From a virus, in IMG/VR virus record IMGVR_UViG_3300017818_000129, positions 1-21,544 of that record: a DNA stretch of 21,544 nucleotides; one strand, given 5' to 3'. A program made the translations under genes and the position numbers. The notes below the pieces were generated by a model. It did not search any database. It had not been told where the DNA came from and was given only the letters and a program-made list of their open reading frames with translations. How positions within the stretch are numbered: the stretch's first letter is position 1; the number at the start of each line of letters is the position of its first letter. Positions 2 to 19,217 of the stretch are shown in pieces.

Positions 2-553
2 GAATATGCACAAACATGGAGTGACGAGGTCAACGACCGTCTACATGTTCTTGACTGTGTTGGGACGACCATTCAGGAAGTGGATGACTGGTGCAAGATT
101 AACAAACCGGACATCATATTCATTGACCAGTTAGATAAGGTGAAGATTGCGGGTAAGTACAACCGCGGTGATGAGAAACTCAAGGAGATCTATCTCCAAG
201 CTAGAGAAATTGCGAAACGCAATAAGTGCCTTGTGTGGGGTGTATCCCAAGCGAGTGCTGAAGCGGAGGGCCTGCTCGATGTCGAGTACCAATACTTGGA
301 TAACTCAAAGACAGGCAAGGCAGGGGAGGCTGACTTAATTATAGGCATAGGGAGGCGGGGAGACCGCTCTCCAGAGAATACACAACGTTCTGTGTTCGTA
401 TCAAAGAACAAGCAGAACGGGTGGCACGGGAAGGTGATGGCTGAGATCGACATGTATCGTGGAGTCTATGAGAAACAGAATGCAGTCGTCGTCGTACCCG
501 AAGAGTATCGAGAAGAAATTGTCATTCCTACAGAAGGAGATTTCGATGAGTGA
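2..553 (+). CDS. Replicative DNA helicase, DnaB/T7 gp4-like, C-terminal part (5' end outside window)
   Basis: The reading frame is open from base 2, so the gene begins before the window; 183 residues are visible. It would unwind DNA ahead of the phage polymerase using NTP hydrolysis. A Walker B strand (DIIFIDQLD) lies at visible residues 37-45, followed by the strand ending in VWGVSQAS (sensor Gln, about residues 76-83) and a late basic segment (SKNKQNGWHGKV) resembling the KNR-type segment of DnaB-family RecA folds. The Walker A loop and any primase domain must lie upstream and cannot be judged. An internal GTG at position 80 is open in the same frame, but Walker B follows it so closely that it is not a credible start. 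The stop overlaps the ATG of the next gene. The RecA-like helicase call is firm; whether a primase is fused is unknown. Confidence 0.85.
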   Translation, partial: EYAQTWSDEVNDRLHVLDCVGTTIQEVDDWCKINKPDIIFIDQLDKVKIAGKYNRGDEKLKEIYLQAREIAKRNKCLVWGVSQASAEAEGLLDVEYQYLDNSKTGKAGEADLIIGIGRRGDRSPENTQRSVFVSKNKQNGWHGKVMAEIDMYRGVYEKQNAVVVVPEEYREEIVIPTEGDFDE

Positions 554-1004
554 CTATAACGCTGAGTACCACACCCGTAAAACATACGACTCTGTTAGAG
601 CACGTTGTGGCTTACACTCTACACTTCCTGCATCGTGGACAAATTATGCGGAGATTGGCGTGGAGTTATGTGATCGTTGGAAAGAGTCCTATAGAAACTT
701 TGTTGCGGATATGGGCCTTCGCCCTTCCAAGCGCATGACGCTAGATAGGATTGACAACGCTCTCGGGTATTTTAAAGAGAATTGTCGATGGGCAAGCTAC
801 TTCGTACAACAATACAACAAAGCAAAGAAACCGAAGAACTATCACTTTGATGGTACCCATAGTAAGAAATGGGTAGTATCATTTCAGGTGGAGGGTAAGA
901 CCATTAACATGGGACGGTTTGATGACGAGGCAACTGCTAAGAAAGTAGCCAAAGGTGCACACCGTTTGATTGACCGCTTTATTGAAACAGGATTACTCCA
1001 ATGA
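546..1004 (+). CDS. HNH-like endonuclease with C-terminal AP2-like DNA-binding domain (possible free-standing homing endonuclease)
   Basis: The ATG at 546 overlaps the helicase stop and has AAGGAGA at 534-540 with a 5-base gap; a longer in-frame version lies wholly inside the helicase gene and is rejected. The 152-residue product has the signature LDRIDN at 66-71 and ENCRWA at 78-83, a pattern common in phage HNH-type proteins, then a basic linker. Residues about 100-146 look like an AP2/integrase-type DNA-binding fold, with a short strand-rich stretch (WVVSFQVEGKTINMGRFD) and a helix rich in Ala and Lys. Proteins of this layout are usually mobile nicking or homing endonucleases sitting between replication genes. 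The canonical HNH histidine pair is not obvious, so it may be a DNA-binding relic. It sits between helicase and exonuclease with tight overlaps, so it is expressed with the operon. Confidence 0.7.
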   Translation: MSDYNAEYHTRKTYDSVRARCGLHSTLPASWTNYAEIGVELCDRWKESYRNFVADMGLRPSKRMTLDRIDNALGYFKENCRWASYFVQQYNKAKKPKNYHFDGTHSKKWVVSFQVEGKTINMGRFDDEATAKKVAKGAHRLIDRFIETGLLQ

Positions 1005-2083: not shown

Positions 2084-2378
2084 AGGTTTGATGGGCGGCA
2101 TTACCTACGAGTCTGCCGTCATCATCCTCAAGTTCCTACGGAACGAAGCAGATATGGAAGACGATTTGTCGACAGTGGAATACTACAATGGTATGCTCCA
2201 AGGCATGGAGTCTGTCCGCAATGGTGAGATATTCTCACAATCCCTCATGAAGGAGATCAAAGCCTATGGCATCGAAATTATTGAACACCCTACGCCTGTC
2301 GTTGGAGATGACGGACGTCCTTGCGAACCTCGAGAGAACAGGGATCAAGATCGACCCGCAGTCTTTAGCAGAGATTGA
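2058..2378 (+). CDS. Hypothetical protein overlapping the polymerase gene
   Basis: The start is set at ATG 2058, with AGGAG at 2047-2051 six bases before it; an in-frame ATG at 2052 sits immediately after that site. The product has 106 residues. The first 70 are helical with clusters such as SAVIILKFLRNEADMED and YYNGMLQGMESVRNGE, plausible for a small helical protein. The last 37 residues are encoded in the 113-base overlap with the polymerase start in another frame and are rich in Pro, Arg and Asp (TPVVGDDGRPCEPRENRDQD), as expected where the other frame dictates the codons. The N-terminal part fills an otherwise empty gap between tight neighbours, which supports it being a gene. Function not recognised. 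Confidence 0.65.
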   Translation: MSKKPLAYRGLMGGITYESAVIILKFLRNEADMEDDLSTVEYYNGMLQGMESVRNGEIFSQSLMKEIKAYGIEIIEHPTPVVGDDGRPCEPRENRDQDRPAVFSRD

Positions 2379-3810
2379 GAAGGAATATAGGGAAGAGCTA
2401 CAAGAGCTAGAAGTTAAGCTCCAGCGCATGGCTGAAGAGGCGATGGGTGACACACCTATCAACCTCAACAGTGCTGATGACCGTTCTATGCTGTTCTACT
2501 CCCGTCGAGTCCTGAGTAAGAAGCGTTGGTCATCTATCTTCAACCTCGGTTCAGAGCTACGTGGAGCAACACGTAAACCGAAGCAACGTACAAAAATGAC
2601 AAAAAAATTATTTGCGATGTATGTCAAAGACGAGACTGAGATCTTACATAAGACAGTTGCATCCCGGTGTACTAAGTGCATGGGTAAAGGACGTAACCAA
2701 GTAATCAAGAAGGATGGTACGGTAGGTAAAGCTATACGGGTATGTAAGCCGTGTGGAGGCGATGGAGTTATCTATGCGAAGACTAAACAAGTTGCAGGCT
2801 TCAAGATTATACCGCGGGATGCGTGGGATACAGCGGCCGCAGGCTTTAAAACAGACCATGAGACTCTCAAGGAGAGGTTGGATGAATTATCTGGAGACGC
2901 ACGAGAGTTTGCCGAGTCTTACTCAAGGTACAATGCGTTGCGAACTTACTTATCTACCTTTGTCGAGGGACTCAAAAACAATCGCGACGACCAAGACATC
3001 GTGCATCCAGATTTCATGCAATGTATCACTGCGACCGGACGGCTCAGTTCTCGTAACCCCAACTTCCAGAACATGCCCCGTGGCTCTACCTTCGCCATTC
3101 GACGCGCAATGGTCTCTCGTTTTAACGGAGGAAAAATCCTAGAGGCTGACTACGGACAGCTTGAGTTTAGGGTGGCAGGCTATCTCGCTAACGACCCACA
3201 GGTGTACCACGATGTGGAGAACAAGACAGATGTACACACTGTTACTGCTGAGATTATCGGGTGTTCCCGTCAGGATGCTAAAGCGCACACATTTAAACCT
3301 CTTTACGGAGGCACAACAGGTACTGACGACCAGCAACGATATTACCGGACTTTTAAAGAGAAGTATGCTGGCGTAACGGATTGGCACGGAGACTTGCAAC
3401 GGGACGCTGTCGAGAAAGGATTCATTACGTTACCCTCCGGAAGACAGTACGCATTCCCCGGAACAACGTGGACAGAGTGGGGTACAGCAACCAATCGCAC
3501 AGCCATCTGTAACTACCCTGTGCAAGGATTTGCGACAGGTGATCTCCTACCAATAGCCTTAGTTTATCTCTCTAAGTCTATGAAAGGTAAGGAATTAAAA
3601 AGTGTCATTTGTAATACAGTACATGATAGTATTGTGCTTGACATCTTCCCCGGTGAGGAGGATACTGTAACTAATCTCGTGGTTGAGGCGATGATGTCTC
3701 TCCCACAAGAGTGCCGACGCAGGTATGGTATCGAGTATGACATGCCGATATCTGTCGAGGTTAAGATGGGGTCCAACTGGTTGGATACCCAAGTTGTTTA
3801 TGCAAACTAA
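2266..3810 (+). CDS. Family A DNA polymerase, polymerase domain only, with DnaJ-like zinc motif
   Basis: The 514-residue product copies the phage genome. Motif A is LEADYGQLEFRV at 292-303 (catalytic Asp295). Motif B is RQDAKAHTFKPLYGG at 335-349 with the Pol I spacing Arg335, Lys339, Phe343, Tyr347. Motif C is NTVHDSIVLD at 450-459 (His453, Asp454). The TGRLSSRNPNFQNMP segment is at 257-271. No exonuclease domain is present; it is encoded at 1001-1549. Residues 135-167 hold CTKCMGKG ... CKPCGGDG (Cys135, 138, 160, 163), like two arms of a DnaJ central zinc domain, placed before the catalytic palm. Start ATG 2266 has AAGGAGA at 2250-2256; the N-terminal LANLERTGIKID matches the start of Pol I polymerase domains. 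Phe343 aligns with E. coli Phe762. A DnaJ-like segment in PolA is something I recall from Puniceispirillum phage HMO-2011. Confidence 0.95.
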   Translation: MASKLLNTLRLSLEMTDVLANLERTGIKIDPQSLAEIEKEYREELQELEVKLQRMAEEAMGDTPINLNSADDRSMLFYSRRVLSKKRWSSIFNLGSELRGATRKPKQRTKMTKKLFAMYVKDETEILHKTVASRCTKCMGKGRNQVIKKDGTVGKAIRVCKPCGGDGVIYAKTKQVAGFKIIPRDAWDTAAAGFKTDHETLKERLDELSGDAREFAESYSRYNALRTYLSTFVEGLKNNRDDQDIVHPDFMQCITATGRLSSRNPNFQNMPRGSTFAIRRAMVSRFNGGKILEADYGQLEFRVAGYLANDPQVYHDVENKTDVHTVTAEIIGCSRQDAKAHTFKPLYGGTTGTDDQQRYYRTFKEKYAGVTDWHGDLQRDAVEKGFITLPSGRQYAFPGTTWTEWGTATNRTAICNYPVQGFATGDLLPIALVYLSKSMKGKELKSVICNTVHDSIVLDIFPGEEDTVTNLVVEAMMSLPQECRRRYGIEYDMPISVEVKMGSNWLDTQVVYAN

Positions 3811-7192: not shown

Positions 7193-8947
7193 ATGGAAGC
7201 AATGTACTGTAATAAAATCGCTATCGACTATGATAGAGATGAGCAATTTTCAGGCCAAGCCCTAAAACTTCTCACGGACTACTACATGCTTCCGGAAGAG
7301 ACCAGCCCGCAGGAGGCGTTTGCCCGTGCGGCACTAGCTTACTGTGAGGGAGACTATGCTTTTGCTCAACGCATTTATGACTATGCTAGCAAGCGGTGGT
7401 TTATGTTTGCTTCACCTGTACTGTCTAACGCACCAGCGGATGGACAAGCAATCAAGGGTCTTCCTATCAGTTGTTTTCTTACTTATGTTGGTGACAATCT
7501 GGACTCCCTTATTGCTCACAATAGCGAAGTTGCATGGTTATCTGTCAAAGGAGGTGGAGTCGGCGGTCACTGGTCTGATGTACGTGGTATAAGCGACAAA
7601 GCACCGGGCCCTATCCCCTTCATGAAAGTCGTTGATTCCGGCATGACAGCTTGGAAACAGGGACGAACACGTAAAGGTTCCTACGCCGCATACATCGATG
7701 TGTCACATCCTGACATTATCGAGTTTATTAACTTTAAAGTACCAACAGGAGGCGACATAAACAGGAAGTGCTTTAACCTGTTTAACGCCGTAAACATTAC
7801 AGACGCTTTTATGGAGGCGGTAGAAAATGGCACAGAATGGCAATTACGAGACCCTAATGACGGATCTATCAGAGATTCAATCCCAGCTAGAAGCTTGTGG
7901 GAAAGAATACTTGAAGCTCGGTTCAGAACTGGCTCACCTTACTTACACTTCATCGATGAATCCAACCGAAGGTTACCAGATTCTCAAAAAGCACTTGGAC
8001 TCGCAGTTAGAGGGTCTAACCTTTGCTCTGAAATCACTCTCCCAACATCTGAGAAACGCACAGCAGTTTGTTGCCTCAGCTCCGTCAACCTCGAAAAGTA
8101 CGACGAGTGGCGTGACACCGGAATGGTTGGAGACTTGGTTCGATTCTTGGACAACGTCCTTGAATTCTTTATCCAAAATGCACCAAGAGAACTTTCAAAA
8201 GCTGTTTACTCAGCTAAACGAGAAAGGTCAATCGGCCTAGGAGCGATGGGTTGGCATGGATACTTGCAAGCAAATAATATCCCGTGGGAAAGTATTTCTG
8301 CAAAGTTTGCGAACCAACGTATCTTTGCCGACATCAAAGCACAAGCTGTCGCGGAGAGTGCGCGTCTTGGGCAAGAAAAAGGTGAGGCACCTGATATGCG
8401 GGGTACGGGACTTCGCAACGCTCACCTTCTCGCTATCGCTCCAAACGCTAACTCTTCTATTATCTGCGGCTGTTCTGCTAGCATTGAGCCTATTAAGTCT
8501 AATGCTTACACCCATCGTACTCGTGCGGGTGCTCATCTCGTCAAGAACCCGAAACTGGAGGAGGTCTTAGATGCGTCAGGCAATAACACGGAGTCTGTAT
8601 GGAAGACAGTGGTTGCATCTCAGGGCTCGGTACAGCATCTGGAATGCCTGTCCGACGATGAGAAGGCGGTCTTTAAAACTGCGTATGAAATTGATCAAGG
8701 CTGGGTTGTTGAACACGCGGGAGACCGACAGCAGTATATTTGCCAAGCCCAGTCAGTCAATCTTTTCTTCCCGGCAAATTCGCCTGCGTCTTATGTCAAT
8801 TCGGTCCATCTTAGAGCGTGGAAGGAGAAACTCAAATCGCTCTATTACCTCCGGACTGACGCCGGTATCGAAGCGGACAAAGTTGGCCTTGCGGTTGAGC
8901 GAGTTGCGCTCCAAGATGCGGAAGAGTGCGTCTCATGTCACGGCTAG
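7193..8947 (+). CDS. nrdA: Ribonucleoside-diphosphate reductase class I, alpha subunit
   Basis: The 584-residue enzyme reduces ribonucleotides to deoxynucleotides with NrdB. The redox cysteines are Cys94 (PISC) and Cys293 or Cys294 (VCCLSSVN). The thiyl-radical centre is NLCSE at 276-280 (Asn276, Cys278, Glu280). The radical-transfer tyrosine pair is Tyr551-Tyr552 (SLYYLRTDA), and the C-terminal CVSC at 579-582 is the re-reduction dithiol. It is shorter than E. coli NrdA (761): the N-terminal ATP cone, which provides overall activity control by dATP, is missing, as in many phage enzymes. The start is ATG 7193 with AAGGAA about 11 bases upstream; ATG 7202 is possible. Codons for residues 213-349 use AGA/AGG for 8 of 15 arginines against 3 of 18 in the rest of the gene, coinciding with an overlapping open frame (7827-8240). 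nrdB follows about 1 kb downstream. Confidence 0.96.
   Translation: MEAMYCNKIAIDYDRDEQFSGQALKLLTDYYMLPEETSPQEAFARAALAYCEGDYAFAQRIYDYASKRWFMFASPVLSNAPADGQAIKGLPISCFLTYVGDNLDSLIAHNSEVAWLSVKGGGVGGHWSDVRGISDKAPGPIPFMKVVDSGMTAWKQGRTRKGSYAAYIDVSHPDIIEFINFKVPTGGDINRKCFNLFNAVNITDAFMEAVENGTEWQLRDPNDGSIRDSIPARSLWERILEARFRTGSPYLHFIDESNRRLPDSQKALGLAVRGSNLCSEITLPTSEKRTAVCCLSSVNLEKYDEWRDTGMVGDLVRFLDNVLEFFIQNAPRELSKAVYSAKRERSIGLGAMGWHGYLQANNIPWESISAKFANQRIFADIKAQAVAESARLGQEKGEAPDMRGTGLRNAHLLAIAPNANSSIICGCSASIEPIKSNAYTHRTRAGAHLVKNPKLEEVLDASGNNTESVWKTVVASQGSVQHLECLSDDEKAVFKTAYEIDQGWVVEHAGDRQQYICQAQSVNLFFPANSPASYVNSVHLRAWKEKLKSLYYLRTDAGIEADKVGLAVERVALQDAEECVSCHG
7827..8240 (+). CDS. Candidate overlapping gene nested in nrdA (+1 frame), 137 residues
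   Basis: This frame lies wholly inside nrdA. ATG 7827 has GGAGG at 7813-7817 with a 9-base gap. The product has a protein-like makeup: a first helical part (LMTDLSEIQSQLEACGKEYL), a second (ILKKHLDSQLEGLTFALKSL), a Ser/Thr/Pro linker (ASAPSTSKSTTSG), and a last part with three tryptophans (PEWLETWFDSWTTSLNSL) and a charged C-terminal helix. It contains only one Arg and one Cys, unlike most out-of-frame shadows in this genome. The nrdA frame shows unusual AGA/AGG arginine use over exactly this stretch, as expected if a second frame constrains it. Against it: other shadow frames of similar length occur on this strand, and nrdA motifs here remain intact. The function is unknown, and this is a hypothesis. 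Confidence 0.4.
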   Translation: MAQNGNYETLMTDLSEIQSQLEACGKEYLKLGSELAHLTYTSSMNPTEGYQILKKHLDSQLEGLTFALKSLSQHLRNAQQFVASAPSTSKSTTSGVTPEWLETWFDSWTTSLNSLSKMHQENFQKLFTQLNEKGQSA

Positions 8948-9982: not shown

Positions 9983-10969
9983 ATGTCTTTATTAGAAGAA
10001 TCAAAGGTTTACAAGCCCTTCAAATACCCTTGGGCTGTTGAATACGCGGTATCCCATGAGAAAGTTCATTGGGGAGAATGGGAGGCAAAGTTACAAGAGG
10101 ATGTAGCACAGTGGCAGGGTGGTAAGCTGTCGGCACAAGAGAAGCACCACATCACGCAAATCCTCAAGTTGTTTACCCAATCGGACGTACAGGTAGGGAC
10201 AAACTACCTCGAGCACTACATCCCGAAACTCAAGAACAATGAGATACGTGCGATGCTCACGTCGTTCGCTAACCGTGAGTTTGTACACCAAAGATCTTAC
10301 GCACTATTAAATGACACGTTGGGTTTGCCCGAGAGTGAGTTCTCCGCATTCCGTGAGTACCAAGCAATGTCTGCAAAAGTGGAGTTCATGTCCGATATTG
10401 ACATGCATAGTGTGTCAGGTATGGCGAAGGCAATCGCCCGCTCTGTGATGAACGAGGGTATGTCGTTGTTTAGTGCGTTCGCGATGCTGTTAAATTATCA
10501 ACGGTACGGAAAGATGCGAGGCATGTGTGAGATCGTAGAGTGGTCTATCCGTGACGAGTCGATGCACTGCGAGGGTATGGTTAAATTATTTAGGGAGTTC
10601 TGCGAAGAGCACCCACGAGTTGTAACAGATGAGTTTAAGAAAGATATCTACGACATGTTCCGGACTGGTGTGGCGTTGGAAGACAAAGTTATTGATAATG
10701 CGTTTGAGATGGGCCAAGTGGAAGGTGTCACGCCCGAGGAGATTAAGCAGTATATCAGATACCTTGCGGACCGACGGCTCATTATGCTCGGGCTCAAAGG
10801 AAACTGGAAGGTCAAAGAAAATCCACTACCTTGGCTAGACTGGATTATCAACGGAGCGTCGCACAAGAACTTCTTCGAGGGGACAGTGACAGACTACAAT
10901 GCTAATGGTATGGTAGGGGATTGGGGTTGGCCCAAGGCAGAAGAAACTCGAGTGGAGGAAGCGGCCTAA
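9983..10969 (+). CDS. nrdB: Ribonucleoside-diphosphate reductase class I, beta subunit
   Basis: The 328-residue subunit generates the radical that NrdA uses. All metal ligands of a di-iron (or Fe/Mn) class I beta are present: Asp68 (QSDVQVG), Glu99 and His102 (REFVHQ), Glu158 (NEGMSLF), Glu192 and His195 (RDESMH). Tyr106, four residues after His102, is in the place of the E. coli radical Tyr122, so this is a tyrosyl-radical enzyme rather than a metal-free or Phe-type variant. The C-terminus ends in an acidic segment (EETRVEEAA), the part that normally docks on NrdA. The start ATG 9983 follows the terminator; its ribosome site (AAGAA) is weak. It is separated from nrdA by about 1 kb holding four small genes and a terminator, an unusual split of a pair that needs balanced dosage. 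Confidence 0.96.
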   Translation: MSLLEESKVYKPFKYPWAVEYAVSHEKVHWGEWEAKLQEDVAQWQGGKLSAQEKHHITQILKLFTQSDVQVGTNYLEHYIPKLKNNEIRAMLTSFANREFVHQRSYALLNDTLGLPESEFSAFREYQAMSAKVEFMSDIDMHSVSGMAKAIARSVMNEGMSLFSAFAMLLNYQRYGKMRGMCEIVEWSIRDESMHCEGMVKLFREFCEEHPRVVTDEFKKDIYDMFRTGVALEDKVIDNAFEMGQVEGVTPEEIKQYIRYLADRRLIMLGLKGNWKVKENPLPWLDWIINGASHKNFFEGTVTDYNANGMVGDWGWPKAEETRVEEAA

Positions 10970-16994: not shown

Positions 16995-19217
16995 TTAGAG
17001 TACCAGTTCACCATTAGCGTTTAGCTTGCCACCGACGCCACTTGGAAGAGGAACCGTGTCACCAACTTTTGGATAAGCCTTATAGAAACGTCCGTTACTC
17101 GCTCTATTCACTTCATCTTCGAGGACAGCAAAGAGATAGTCTTTTGACCCTTGTCCCTCAGATATCATCTTTTTATCCGCAGTCCAAGCCGCCCAGACCC
17201 TCGCTTCATTCTTAGATGAAAGACCCATCGCAATTTTGTACTGTCGCTCCATCACTGTTACGACCGACTGAATCACAGCGCGTTTTACTTTTGTATCTTG
17301 GAGTGTGCCGTTAAAGTTGAGGAGGTTTTGAATACGCTCAATATCCGCGTCAGAGATCGTACGGGCCGCGGCGTTACCACCTTGGAGTGCCATAGCCATC
17401 GAGTAAACGAGAACACCTTCGTAGTATTTCTGGACAGCATTTGCTACGGCAATCTCGTTTGTCTCATTAAGATTTGCGATATCCTTATCGAGATTGTTTT
17501 TTAGATTAAGGAGCTTCTCTTTATTCTTACTCTTTTGTTGCTCAGTATCTGTTGATAAATCAATTGCTTGCATAAAGTAATCGATCTGAGCACCAAAACC
17601 ATTCAAAGCACTGACCGCAGAACCGACAATACCCGGAATTGCAGGGCTGTCTGCTCCGTACGAAGTCATGAGAGCTTGACCAACAAGTACAGTGTTCTTT
17701 GCCGCATCAGCCTTGTTTGTGATGTCGGCCATCTTTTGAGTACCGAGGTATGTTCCCTCGATGTACTTTACGTATTGTTCTTGTTCTTTGTTTAGTCGCT
17801 CAATATCATTTGTTTTAAACGCAGGGTAAAGACTTGCCGGTCCACGCATCTCATTGCGCTCGGTTTCAGACTGAACATCCAGAGCGTTGACGGGAGCGAT
17901 GAGGGTTAGTGCCGCTATACTATGGTCTGTATCTAGCCTATCAAACACACCCATTTTTTTCGTGTACTCATCGTACGCTTTCATTGCACCGGTGTAACTT
18001 GTGCCTGTGCCAGCTTCAAAAATATTAAACTGCCCGCCCCTCCTTTTAGCATCGAGGGAATAATAATTGTCGTAATTACGGAAAATTCCTCGAGTGTGGA
18101 GCATTGCATCAAGTGCGTCTGTGGGTTTCATATTAGCTGTTAGAGCTAGCCCGTGTATTTCTTCTACGACGGCATCTGTAGATGCGTTACGCATATTTAT
18201 GTTCTTGCCCGCATTTCTAATAATATTTTTTTCGCCTTCCGTAAGCACACGTTCTGACGTATCAAGAGTAGGAAGAGTGGTACCATCCTTAGGTACTCCT
18301 ATAATTTCCTCTTCTCCTGTCGTCGGGTTTACTACGACCTTTTTATCTAAGTCAATTTGCTCGGGAGGAATACGCATGTTGTACAGTCTTGCATAAACCT
18401 CTGATAGTTTAGCTTTAGACTCCTTAGAGATATCATTATACACACCCTCAAGTAACTCAATTGCTAGGTCTGGAGTGTAAGTCGTAGCGACCGACTCAAT
18501 CAAACTTGCGGGAATTCGGGGTGTTCTTTGACCGGCGAGTTTTGGATCGCCCTCTACAGTACGGGTGTAGTCTAGCGCGGCCTGCTCGAGATAGGAGCCG
18601 AGTTGCCCCTTCCATTGAGCCGCGAGAGTTGGATAGCGTTGCTCCCAGAAAGCGTATTGTTGCCCGCTAATCTCCCGTTGAGCGTGGAGAAGTTTCTCCG
18701 CACCTGTTGTACCACGTGGGATGTACTGGCCCGTGGTGACATCTTCATACATACGTCCCGTATCTTGGTCGCGTATTTGGGCTGGCATTCCATCCTTAAA
18801 TGAGTTGACACGACGGTAGACAAATACGGCGTTTGGATCGATAGTCTCGCCCATTGTTTGTGCGATGGTACGTGCAGGCGTTGCCGTATCAGTACCGAGT
18901 GCGATGTTACGTTCCCGGAGACGACGTTGATCGCGCTGTAATTTTGCGGCCTCACTCTCTCCCTCAATAGTAATCCCAGCACGGCCTGTTATTAGTGCTT
19001 CCTTCTCTTTCATAAACAGATCGTGCTCAGTCTGCGTAGCACCCTGCGGCGTTAAAAGAAACATTGCTCCTGCTTTTTTCTTTGCAAGCTCTTTATTAAA
19101 GGCAAGATCAATTGCGTCCTGCGCCTCTTTCTCTTTTGCCGTTTTCTTAGCTTCCGCGGCAGATACTGCTCTAGCTCCTGACGCTAGACCTACACCGAGT
19201 GCGAGTAAAGGTAACAT
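16995..19217 (-). CDS. Internal virion protein, 740 residues (T7 gp15-like by size and order)
   Basis: The start ATG shares its A with the preceding TAA and has AGGAG about 10 bases upstream. The length is near that of T7 gp15 (747), and it lies just before the giant protein, so a place in the internal core or ejection tube is inferred. The N-terminus is hydrophobic and small (MLPLLALGVGLASGARAVSA), possibly a membrane-active segment, followed by an Ala/Lys helix. The middle and C-terminal parts are predominantly helical with polar Asn/Lys-rich stretches (KEKLLNLKNNLDKDIANLNE). The last 30 residues look like a small beta domain (VGDTVPLPSGVGGKLNANGE). No catalytic motif is visible. The assignment is by context, since the sequence is not directly recognisable as gp15. 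Confidence 0.7.
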   Translation of the reverse strand: MLPLLALGVGLASGARAVSAAEAKKTAKEKEAQDAIDLAFNKELAKKKAGAMFLLTPQGATQTEHDLFMKEKEALITGRAGITIEGESEAAKLQRDQRRLRERNIALGTDTATPARTIAQTMGETIDPNAVFVYRRVNSFKDGMPAQIRDQDTGRMYEDVTTGQYIPRGTTGAEKLLHAQREISGQQYAFWEQRYPTLAAQWKGQLGSYLEQAALDYTRTVEGDPKLAGQRTPRIPASLIESVATTYTPDLAIELLEGVYNDISKESKAKLSEVYARLYNMRIPPEQIDLDKKVVVNPTTGEEEIIGVPKDGTTLPTLDTSERVLTEGEKNIIRNAGKNINMRNASTDAVVEEIHGLALTANMKPTDALDAMLHTRGIFRNYDNYYSLDAKRRGGQFNIFEAGTGTSYTGAMKAYDEYTKKMGVFDRLDTDHSIAALTLIAPVNALDVQSETERNEMRGPASLYPAFKTNDIERLNKEQEQYVKYIEGTYLGTQKMADITNKADAAKNTVLVGQALMTSYGADSPAIPGIVGSAVSALNGFGAQIDYFMQAIDLSTDTEQQKSKNKEKLLNLKNNLDKDIANLNETNEIAVANAVQKYYEGVLVYSMAMALQGGNAAARTISDADIERIQNLLNFNGTLQDTKVKRAVIQSVVTVMERQYKIAMGLSSKNEARVWAAWTADKKMISEGQGSKDYLFAVLEDEVNRASNGRFYKAYPKVGDTVPLPSGVGGKLNANGELVL

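Follow-up and report, generated by a model that had tools for sequence, protein, structure and literature searches.

A candidate overprinted gene nested in the +1 frame of nrdA in a lineage of uncultured phages

The stretch of DNA analyzed here (hereinafter, the window) is a 21.5-kb virus record that contains both genes of a class I ribonucleotide reductase (RNR), nrdA and nrdB (Table 1). The window NrdA is short and begins directly with the all-alpha domain; it comprises the all-alpha and barrel domains of RNR, carries the active-site and redox cysteine motifs, and is encoded next to nrdB, as is characteristic of class I large subunits. The sequence-only reading of this DNA had suggested that a 137-codon gene may be nested inside nrdA in the +1 frame, and had pointed to a GGAGG sequence, an ATG codon and an uninterrupted frame. 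All these elements are present in the sequence, and the frame is closed by a TAG codon at 8238-8240. The ORF crosses the nrdA codons for NLCSE and VCCLSS, which we take to be the active-site motif and the second redox-cysteine motif of class I RNR, respectively, and thus the active-site region of the enzyme; therefore, the overlap involves nrdA codons that are among the least free to change.

Table 1. Positions of nrdA, nrdB, and the nested ORF with its start signals in the window
Feature	Position	Strand	Basis
nrdA, class I ribonucleotide reductase large subunit, 584 aa	7193..8947	+	Pfam Ribonuc_red_lgC 2.8e-115, Ribonuc_red_lgN 4.6e-13; phrog_84 1.4e-172
GGAGG, Shine-Dalgarno sequence of the candidate nested gene, 9 nt before ATG	7813..7817	+	conserved nrdA Glu codon
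In-frame TAG just upstream of the nested ATG	7821..7823	+	in-frame stop at the same place in most relatives
ATG, start of the candidate nested gene	7827..7829	+	conserved overlapping nrdA Asn/His codon
Candidate nested (overprinted) gene, 137 codons, +1 frame of nrdA	7827..8240	+	frame open and constrained across the clade
nrdA codons for the NLCSE and VCCLSS motifs, overprinted by the nested ORF	8018..8083	+	motif positions in the sequence
nrdB, class I ribonucleotide reductase small subunit	9983..10969	+	Pfam Ribonuc_red_sm 2.1e-70

The affiliation of the phage was assessed from its DNA polymerase, which has a DNA_pol_A match (4.2e-52) and, at its positions 131-171, a DnaJ_CXXCXGXG match of 0.0013 that lies below the curated cut-off. 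A DnaJ insertion in the family A polymerase is a mark of the HMO-2011-type group (PMC9038755). The 12 best matches of the window polymerase are all HMO-2011-type isolates, including HTVC033P (47.5%), CRP-3, and HMO-2011. Comparison with the HMO-2011-type marine podoviruses (HMO-2011, CRP-1/2/3, HTVC033P) revealed several common features: (i) the polymerases are 36-48% identical over nearly the full length, (ii) the DnaJ-type insertion is shared, and (iii) the gene order around the replication module is similar, the virion genes being on the opposite strand. Because of this kinship, the window phage is read as marine. The differences from these phages are the class of RNR and the split polymerase of the window. 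HMO-2011, CRP-1, and CRP-3 have a class II RNR and HTVC033P has none annotated in the stretch that was read, whereas the window encodes the class I enzyme.

In the window, the exonuclease and polymerase domains are encoded by separate ORFs (1001-1549 and 2266-3810) with three small ORFs between them. The short polymerase frame is common to the window and its close relatives, and a single long frame is found in HTVC033P and in those relatives whose nested ORF has 122 codons. The split polymerase is adjoined by an ORF of 181 aa (459-1004, plus strand) that resembles by eye a free-standing homing endonuclease of the HNH/AP2 type and has no Pfam match. No terminase, portal, or capsid genes were identified in the window. 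A large virion-side protein of about 740 aa (16995-19217, minus strand) has no match in 50,697 phage records, and a relative of it, 52% identical, was found in one of 26 related viral contigs searched.

The length of the nested ORF was rejected as evidence for a gene. After shuffling of synonymous codons in the window nrdA, 20% of trials gave a +1 ORF of 137 codons or more (P about 0.20); thus, length in a single sequence is not beyond chance, and only the comparative data lift the observation above it. The sequence-only reading had itself cautioned that length is weak evidence given the other shadow frames, and rightly so: a shadow ORF of 129 codons in polA (2753-3142), used as a negative control, is interrupted in six of eight relatives and shows almost no synonymous constraint (0.456 vs. 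0.504).

For the comparative analysis, we used 80 IMG/VR contigs encoding NrdA proteins with at least 70% identity, which were codon-aligned and reduced to 61 sequences by removal of near-duplicates. In 53 of these 61 non-redundant sequences, with nucleotide identities as low as about 65%, no stop interrupts the first 118 codons of the +1 frame, counted from the same codon. These 53 include every close sequence, so that the search for +1 stops in close relatives, proposed in the earlier reading, returned none. Synonymous shuffling of each sequence predicts 3.9 stops in the +1 frame on average, and the mean chance of finding none is 1.6%. The +2 frame contains about nine stops, which is near expectation. 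Among the five alternative frames compared, a long conserved open run exists only in the nested one, where it extends over 123 codons from the ORF start; the runs in the others do not exceed 47 codons. In one contig (L024), nrdA itself has a premature stop at codon 293, possibly a sequencing error or a broken copy.

Synonymous divergence of nrdA over the ORF amounts to 0.64 of expectation in distant pairs and to 0.56 in both middle and close ones, and is about 1 on either side; in the eight relatives with a closed frame, the value for the same interval is 1.03. When only phylogenetically disjoint pairs were considered, divergence was lower inside the ORF in 23 of 26 pairs (P = 9e-5) vs. 3 of 8 in the ORF-lacking set, and parsimony yielded 0.154 changes per codon inside and 0.239 outside (P = 9e-11). 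The NrdA protein is equally conserved inside and outside the ORF (0.820 and 0.822), and thus a stricter stretch of NrdA is not the cause of the constraint. A small subgroup (L026, L028-L031), where the constraint is weak (0.65-0.93), counts against this pattern. On the whole, synonymous variation over the interval, which the sequence-only reading had singled out for a check, is not normal: it is sharply reduced, and the boundaries of the reduction are those of the ORF.

The nested ORFs range from 122 to 156 codons and form three length classes that differ in the place where the constraint is relieved: (i) in the 122-codon class, it changes from 0.43 to 1.03 across nrdA codon 333, (ii) in the 137-codon class, from 0.79 to 1.02 across codon 348, and (iii) in the 151-codon class, from 0.55 to 1.28 across codon 362. 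This agreement between the right-hand border of the constraint and the stop codon of each class is the most telling result of the analysis. A second, weaker synonymous dip was observed further downstream, at 8366-8573 (nrdA codons 391-460), with 0.58-0.80 of expectation among close relatives. This dip fades in distant pairs, and no conserved alternative frame is present there.

The nrdA codons that supply the start signals of the ORF are highly conserved. The Glu codon contributing to GGAGG is GAG in all 51 of 51 ORF-bearing sequences vs. 50% elsewhere in the gene, and the Asn/His codon overlapping the start is AAT or CAT in 49 of 49 vs. about 48-50% elsewhere in these genes. The nested start is GTG in two relatives, and in L059 both the start and GGAG lie a few bases further downstream. 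Between the Shine-Dalgarno sequence and the start, valine (7820-7822) is encoded by GTA in 49 of 53 ORF-bearing sequences vs. about 25% elsewhere; this choice yields an A-rich spacer and, often, an in-frame stop. Most relatives have an in-frame stop two codons before the ATG, and in some the +1 frame is open for 11-35 codons upstream of it. In the window sequence, the TAG upstream of the ATG rules out a longer +1 frame or entry by frameshifting from further upstream.

Substitution patterns were also analyzed with respect to the encoded +1 protein. Changes that are silent in nrdA and alter the ORF protein amount to 0.25 inside the ORF vs. 0.55 outside, and SN/SS is 0.29 vs. 0.56. Among changes altering NrdA, those that also alter the ORF protein are depressed, with NN/NS of 0.66 (95% interval 0.48-0.89) inside vs. 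0.92 in the same frame outside. As judged from these alignments, the predicted +1 protein is under purifying selection. The choice of arginine codons shows a related effect. Over the ORF, 8 of 15 arginines of the window nrdA are encoded by AGA or AGG, compared with 3 of 18 elsewhere, exactly as counted in the earlier reading, where this shift was ascribed to a second constrained frame. The ascription is sound, as the skew exists at the level of the clade and in ORF-bearing sequences only: these use AGR codons for 305 of 620 arginines inside the ORF (49%) vs. 224 of 987 outside (23%), and the ORF-lacking sequences show no shift (23 of 69 inside vs. 48 of 140 outside).

Three other explanations of these observations were considered. 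The codon usage and amino-acid composition of NrdA could by themselves keep the +1 frame open, without any product being made; the unremarkable length of the ORF and a composition of NrdA that somewhat disfavors +1 stops agree with this, but not the 53 open sequences with their low individual chances, the reduction of synonymous change with borders matching the ORF, the conserved start and Shine-Dalgarno codons, or the failure of the comparable polA shadow ORF in the same tests. Unless the alignments are wrong, these comparisons already refute such a chance origin, and we assign it a negligible probability. Since synonymous constraint alone is no proof of coding, the constraint might instead be caused by an RNA or DNA element in nrdA (a structure, a regulatory site, or a packaging or replication signal), the open frame being a by-product. 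However, the constraint spans 120-150 codons and ends in each ORF class at the respective stop codon, which is not expected of an RNA element; moreover, substitutions favor changes silent in +1, stops are avoided in the +1 frame only, no Rfam match was found, and the fold around the start is not unusual (z = 0.45). An element of this kind is thus a very improbable cause. The +1 product could also be real and yet be joined by frameshifting to an N-terminal portion of NrdA, with no start of its own, as the relatives with a frame open upstream of the ATG might suggest. We consider this highly improbable, given the in-frame stop before the ATG in most sequences and the onset of the constraint at the Shine-Dalgarno and ATG codons, which are the most invariant ones.

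The most probable interpretation (about 0.96) is that the +1-frame ORF is a real, selected, protein-coding gene overprinted on nrdA. The 137-codon nested gene proposed in the sequence-only reading is supported by the open frame, the synonymous constraint, the start signals, selection at the protein level, and the agreement of helical models of two class members. The comparative data indicate purifying selection on the frame, on its start codon and Shine-Dalgarno sequence, and on the predicted protein sequence, and the constraint ends at the stop codon. Translation by internal initiation is very likely: ribosomes would load at the GGAGG and ATG of the nested gene inside the nrdA message, and the nested protein would be made together with NrdA, presumably in the DNA-replication phase.

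The history of the nested gene was traced on a tree built from the part of nrdA outside the overlap. The frame is open in one lineage, closed in the outgroups L056, L060, and L075 and in the cultured phages, and lost in L046, L053, and L063. Thus, the gene appears to have arisen by overprinting within one NrdA lineage of uncultured phages and to have been partly lost in a subclade. Two members of the otherwise ORF-losing lineage, L051 (3608-3871, 88 codons) and L058 (3617-3913, 99 codons), have a truncated nested ORF with an intact Shine-Dalgarno sequence and ATG; these ORFs may be decaying or shortened functional forms. The nested gene is absent from all cultured phages examined. KZY1-k141_1938105 and T5S1-k141_444551 (Zobellviridae), Methylophilales phage Melnitz, and pelagiphages have homologous NrdA proteins, 53-63% identical, and each of these phages, as well as Lau218 and AD45-P1, has several stops in the +1 frame.

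A scan of IMG/VR with the product yielded 328 related loci, and the best 80 of the 328 all lie within nrdA. The nested gene was found in phages with an HMO-2011-type polymerase, either closely related to that of the window or only about 40% identical, and also in L061, L066, L071, L079, and others, where the polymerase is barely related and the terminase is different and shorter. The occurrence of the gene in at least two distinct phage backbones means that the unit of NrdA and the nested gene is not tied to one backbone. The phages carrying it are uncultured and probably marine.

The predicted product has a mass of 15 kDa in the window and 13.6-17 kDa overall; it is mostly acidic (pI 5.0-6.7 in five examples), with a negative GRAVY. 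The same architecture was obtained in AlphaFold2 models of two class members: a pair of long helices, then a Ser/Thr linker modeled with low confidence, then one more helix. This accords with the helix-linker-helix character claimed from the sequence, although the confidence of the models is moderate (pLDDT about 70, pTM 0.47-0.48). The third helix differs in length between the ORF classes, and thus its end is probably not critical. No consistent or significant profile match was found for the product in Pfam, PHROGs, PADLOC, and PDB; weak Pfam and PADLOC matches (Baculo_PEP_C, FliJ, ZorA, and others) were dismissed as scattered, generic helical ones. The fold search with the product model gave no significant match, returning only generic helical bundles with low scores. 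Homologs outside nrdA were not found among the best 80 of the 328 IMG/VR matches, nor in GTDB genomes, nor in the phage collection, apart from weak +1 echoes of nrdA. As there is neither a homolog nor a significant fold match, no function is supported beyond the anatomy of the protein.

We envisage the product as a small, soluble, mostly acidic, all-helical protein, in which a two-helix hairpin would be joined by the Ser/Thr linker to a third, amphipathic helix of variable length. It might act by binding a protein partner rather than as an enzyme, a guess to which we give even odds, and serve as an accessory or inhibitory factor in the phage program of replication and nucleotide metabolism, or in host takeover. 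Overprinted viral genes are often accessory, and small acidic lineage-specific phage proteins of the replication phase are often involved in host takeover or anti-defense. The nested protein could thus be a small helical protein that inhibits an enzyme or an immune protein of the host, nrdA merely having had an available frame, as its size, acidity, lineage-specific occurrence, expected expression phase, and patchy loss in a subclade would suggest; however, it is similar to nothing known, and its conservation among widely diverged phages of different backbones is unusual for a narrow anti-defense gene, so that this role is plausible at somewhat less than even odds. A partnership with RNR itself, in assembly, in regulation, or in inhibition of the host enzyme, would explain the location inside nrdA. 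It agrees with co-expression with NrdA by design, with a short NrdA that starts at the all-alpha domain, and with the persistence of the nested gene beside NrdA in phages with unrelated polymerase and terminase genes. Physical overlap forces co-inheritance, so this linkage is no independent evidence, and a subclade with similar NrdA and NrdB has lost the ORF; we regard such a partnership as unlikely. Somewhat more doubtful still is that the nested proteins form a previously undescribed family, encoded across the nrdA catalytic core and present in unrelated backbones, that acts directly on ribonucleotide reduction by the host or the phage enzyme; if true, a single piece of DNA would encode both an enzyme and its regulator.

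Overprinting as such is well known (PMC8227390). In the literature searched (including PMC12918982 and PMC3653736), which lacked many subscription papers, no phage nrdA was described as carrying a nested gene. Long nested genes are rare in double-stranded DNA phages and are normally suppressed by gene callers. The known examples, gene E in D of phiX174 and Rz1 in Rz of lambda, are complete same-strand nested genes in another frame, with their own ribosome-binding site and start and with lineage-specific products. The ORF in nrdA is likewise a complete second gene, as predicted, inside another on the same strand. It differs from both in that (i) the enclosing gene encodes a metabolic enzyme, (ii) the overlap, 122-156 codons long, falls on the catalytic core, and (iii) the product is unrelated to the lysis proteins, has no detected homolog, and is found only in uncultured phages. 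The nested product would constitute a new protein family.

The DNA that encodes the active site of a textbook enzyme appears to carry, in addition, a nested gene of 122-156 codons that is backed by dozens of independent sequences, and metagenomic alignments alone can reveal such genes. Surveys of viral nrdA at the nucleotide level that overlook the overlap would misinterpret both codon bias and dN/dS in the nested stretch. The predicted product would represent a new protein family, found in phages whose relatives form one of the most abundant marine groups. As ORFs of three lengths, along with the gain, truncation, and loss of the gene, can be followed on a single tree, the locus offers an unusually clean system for studying the birth of a gene atop another gene.
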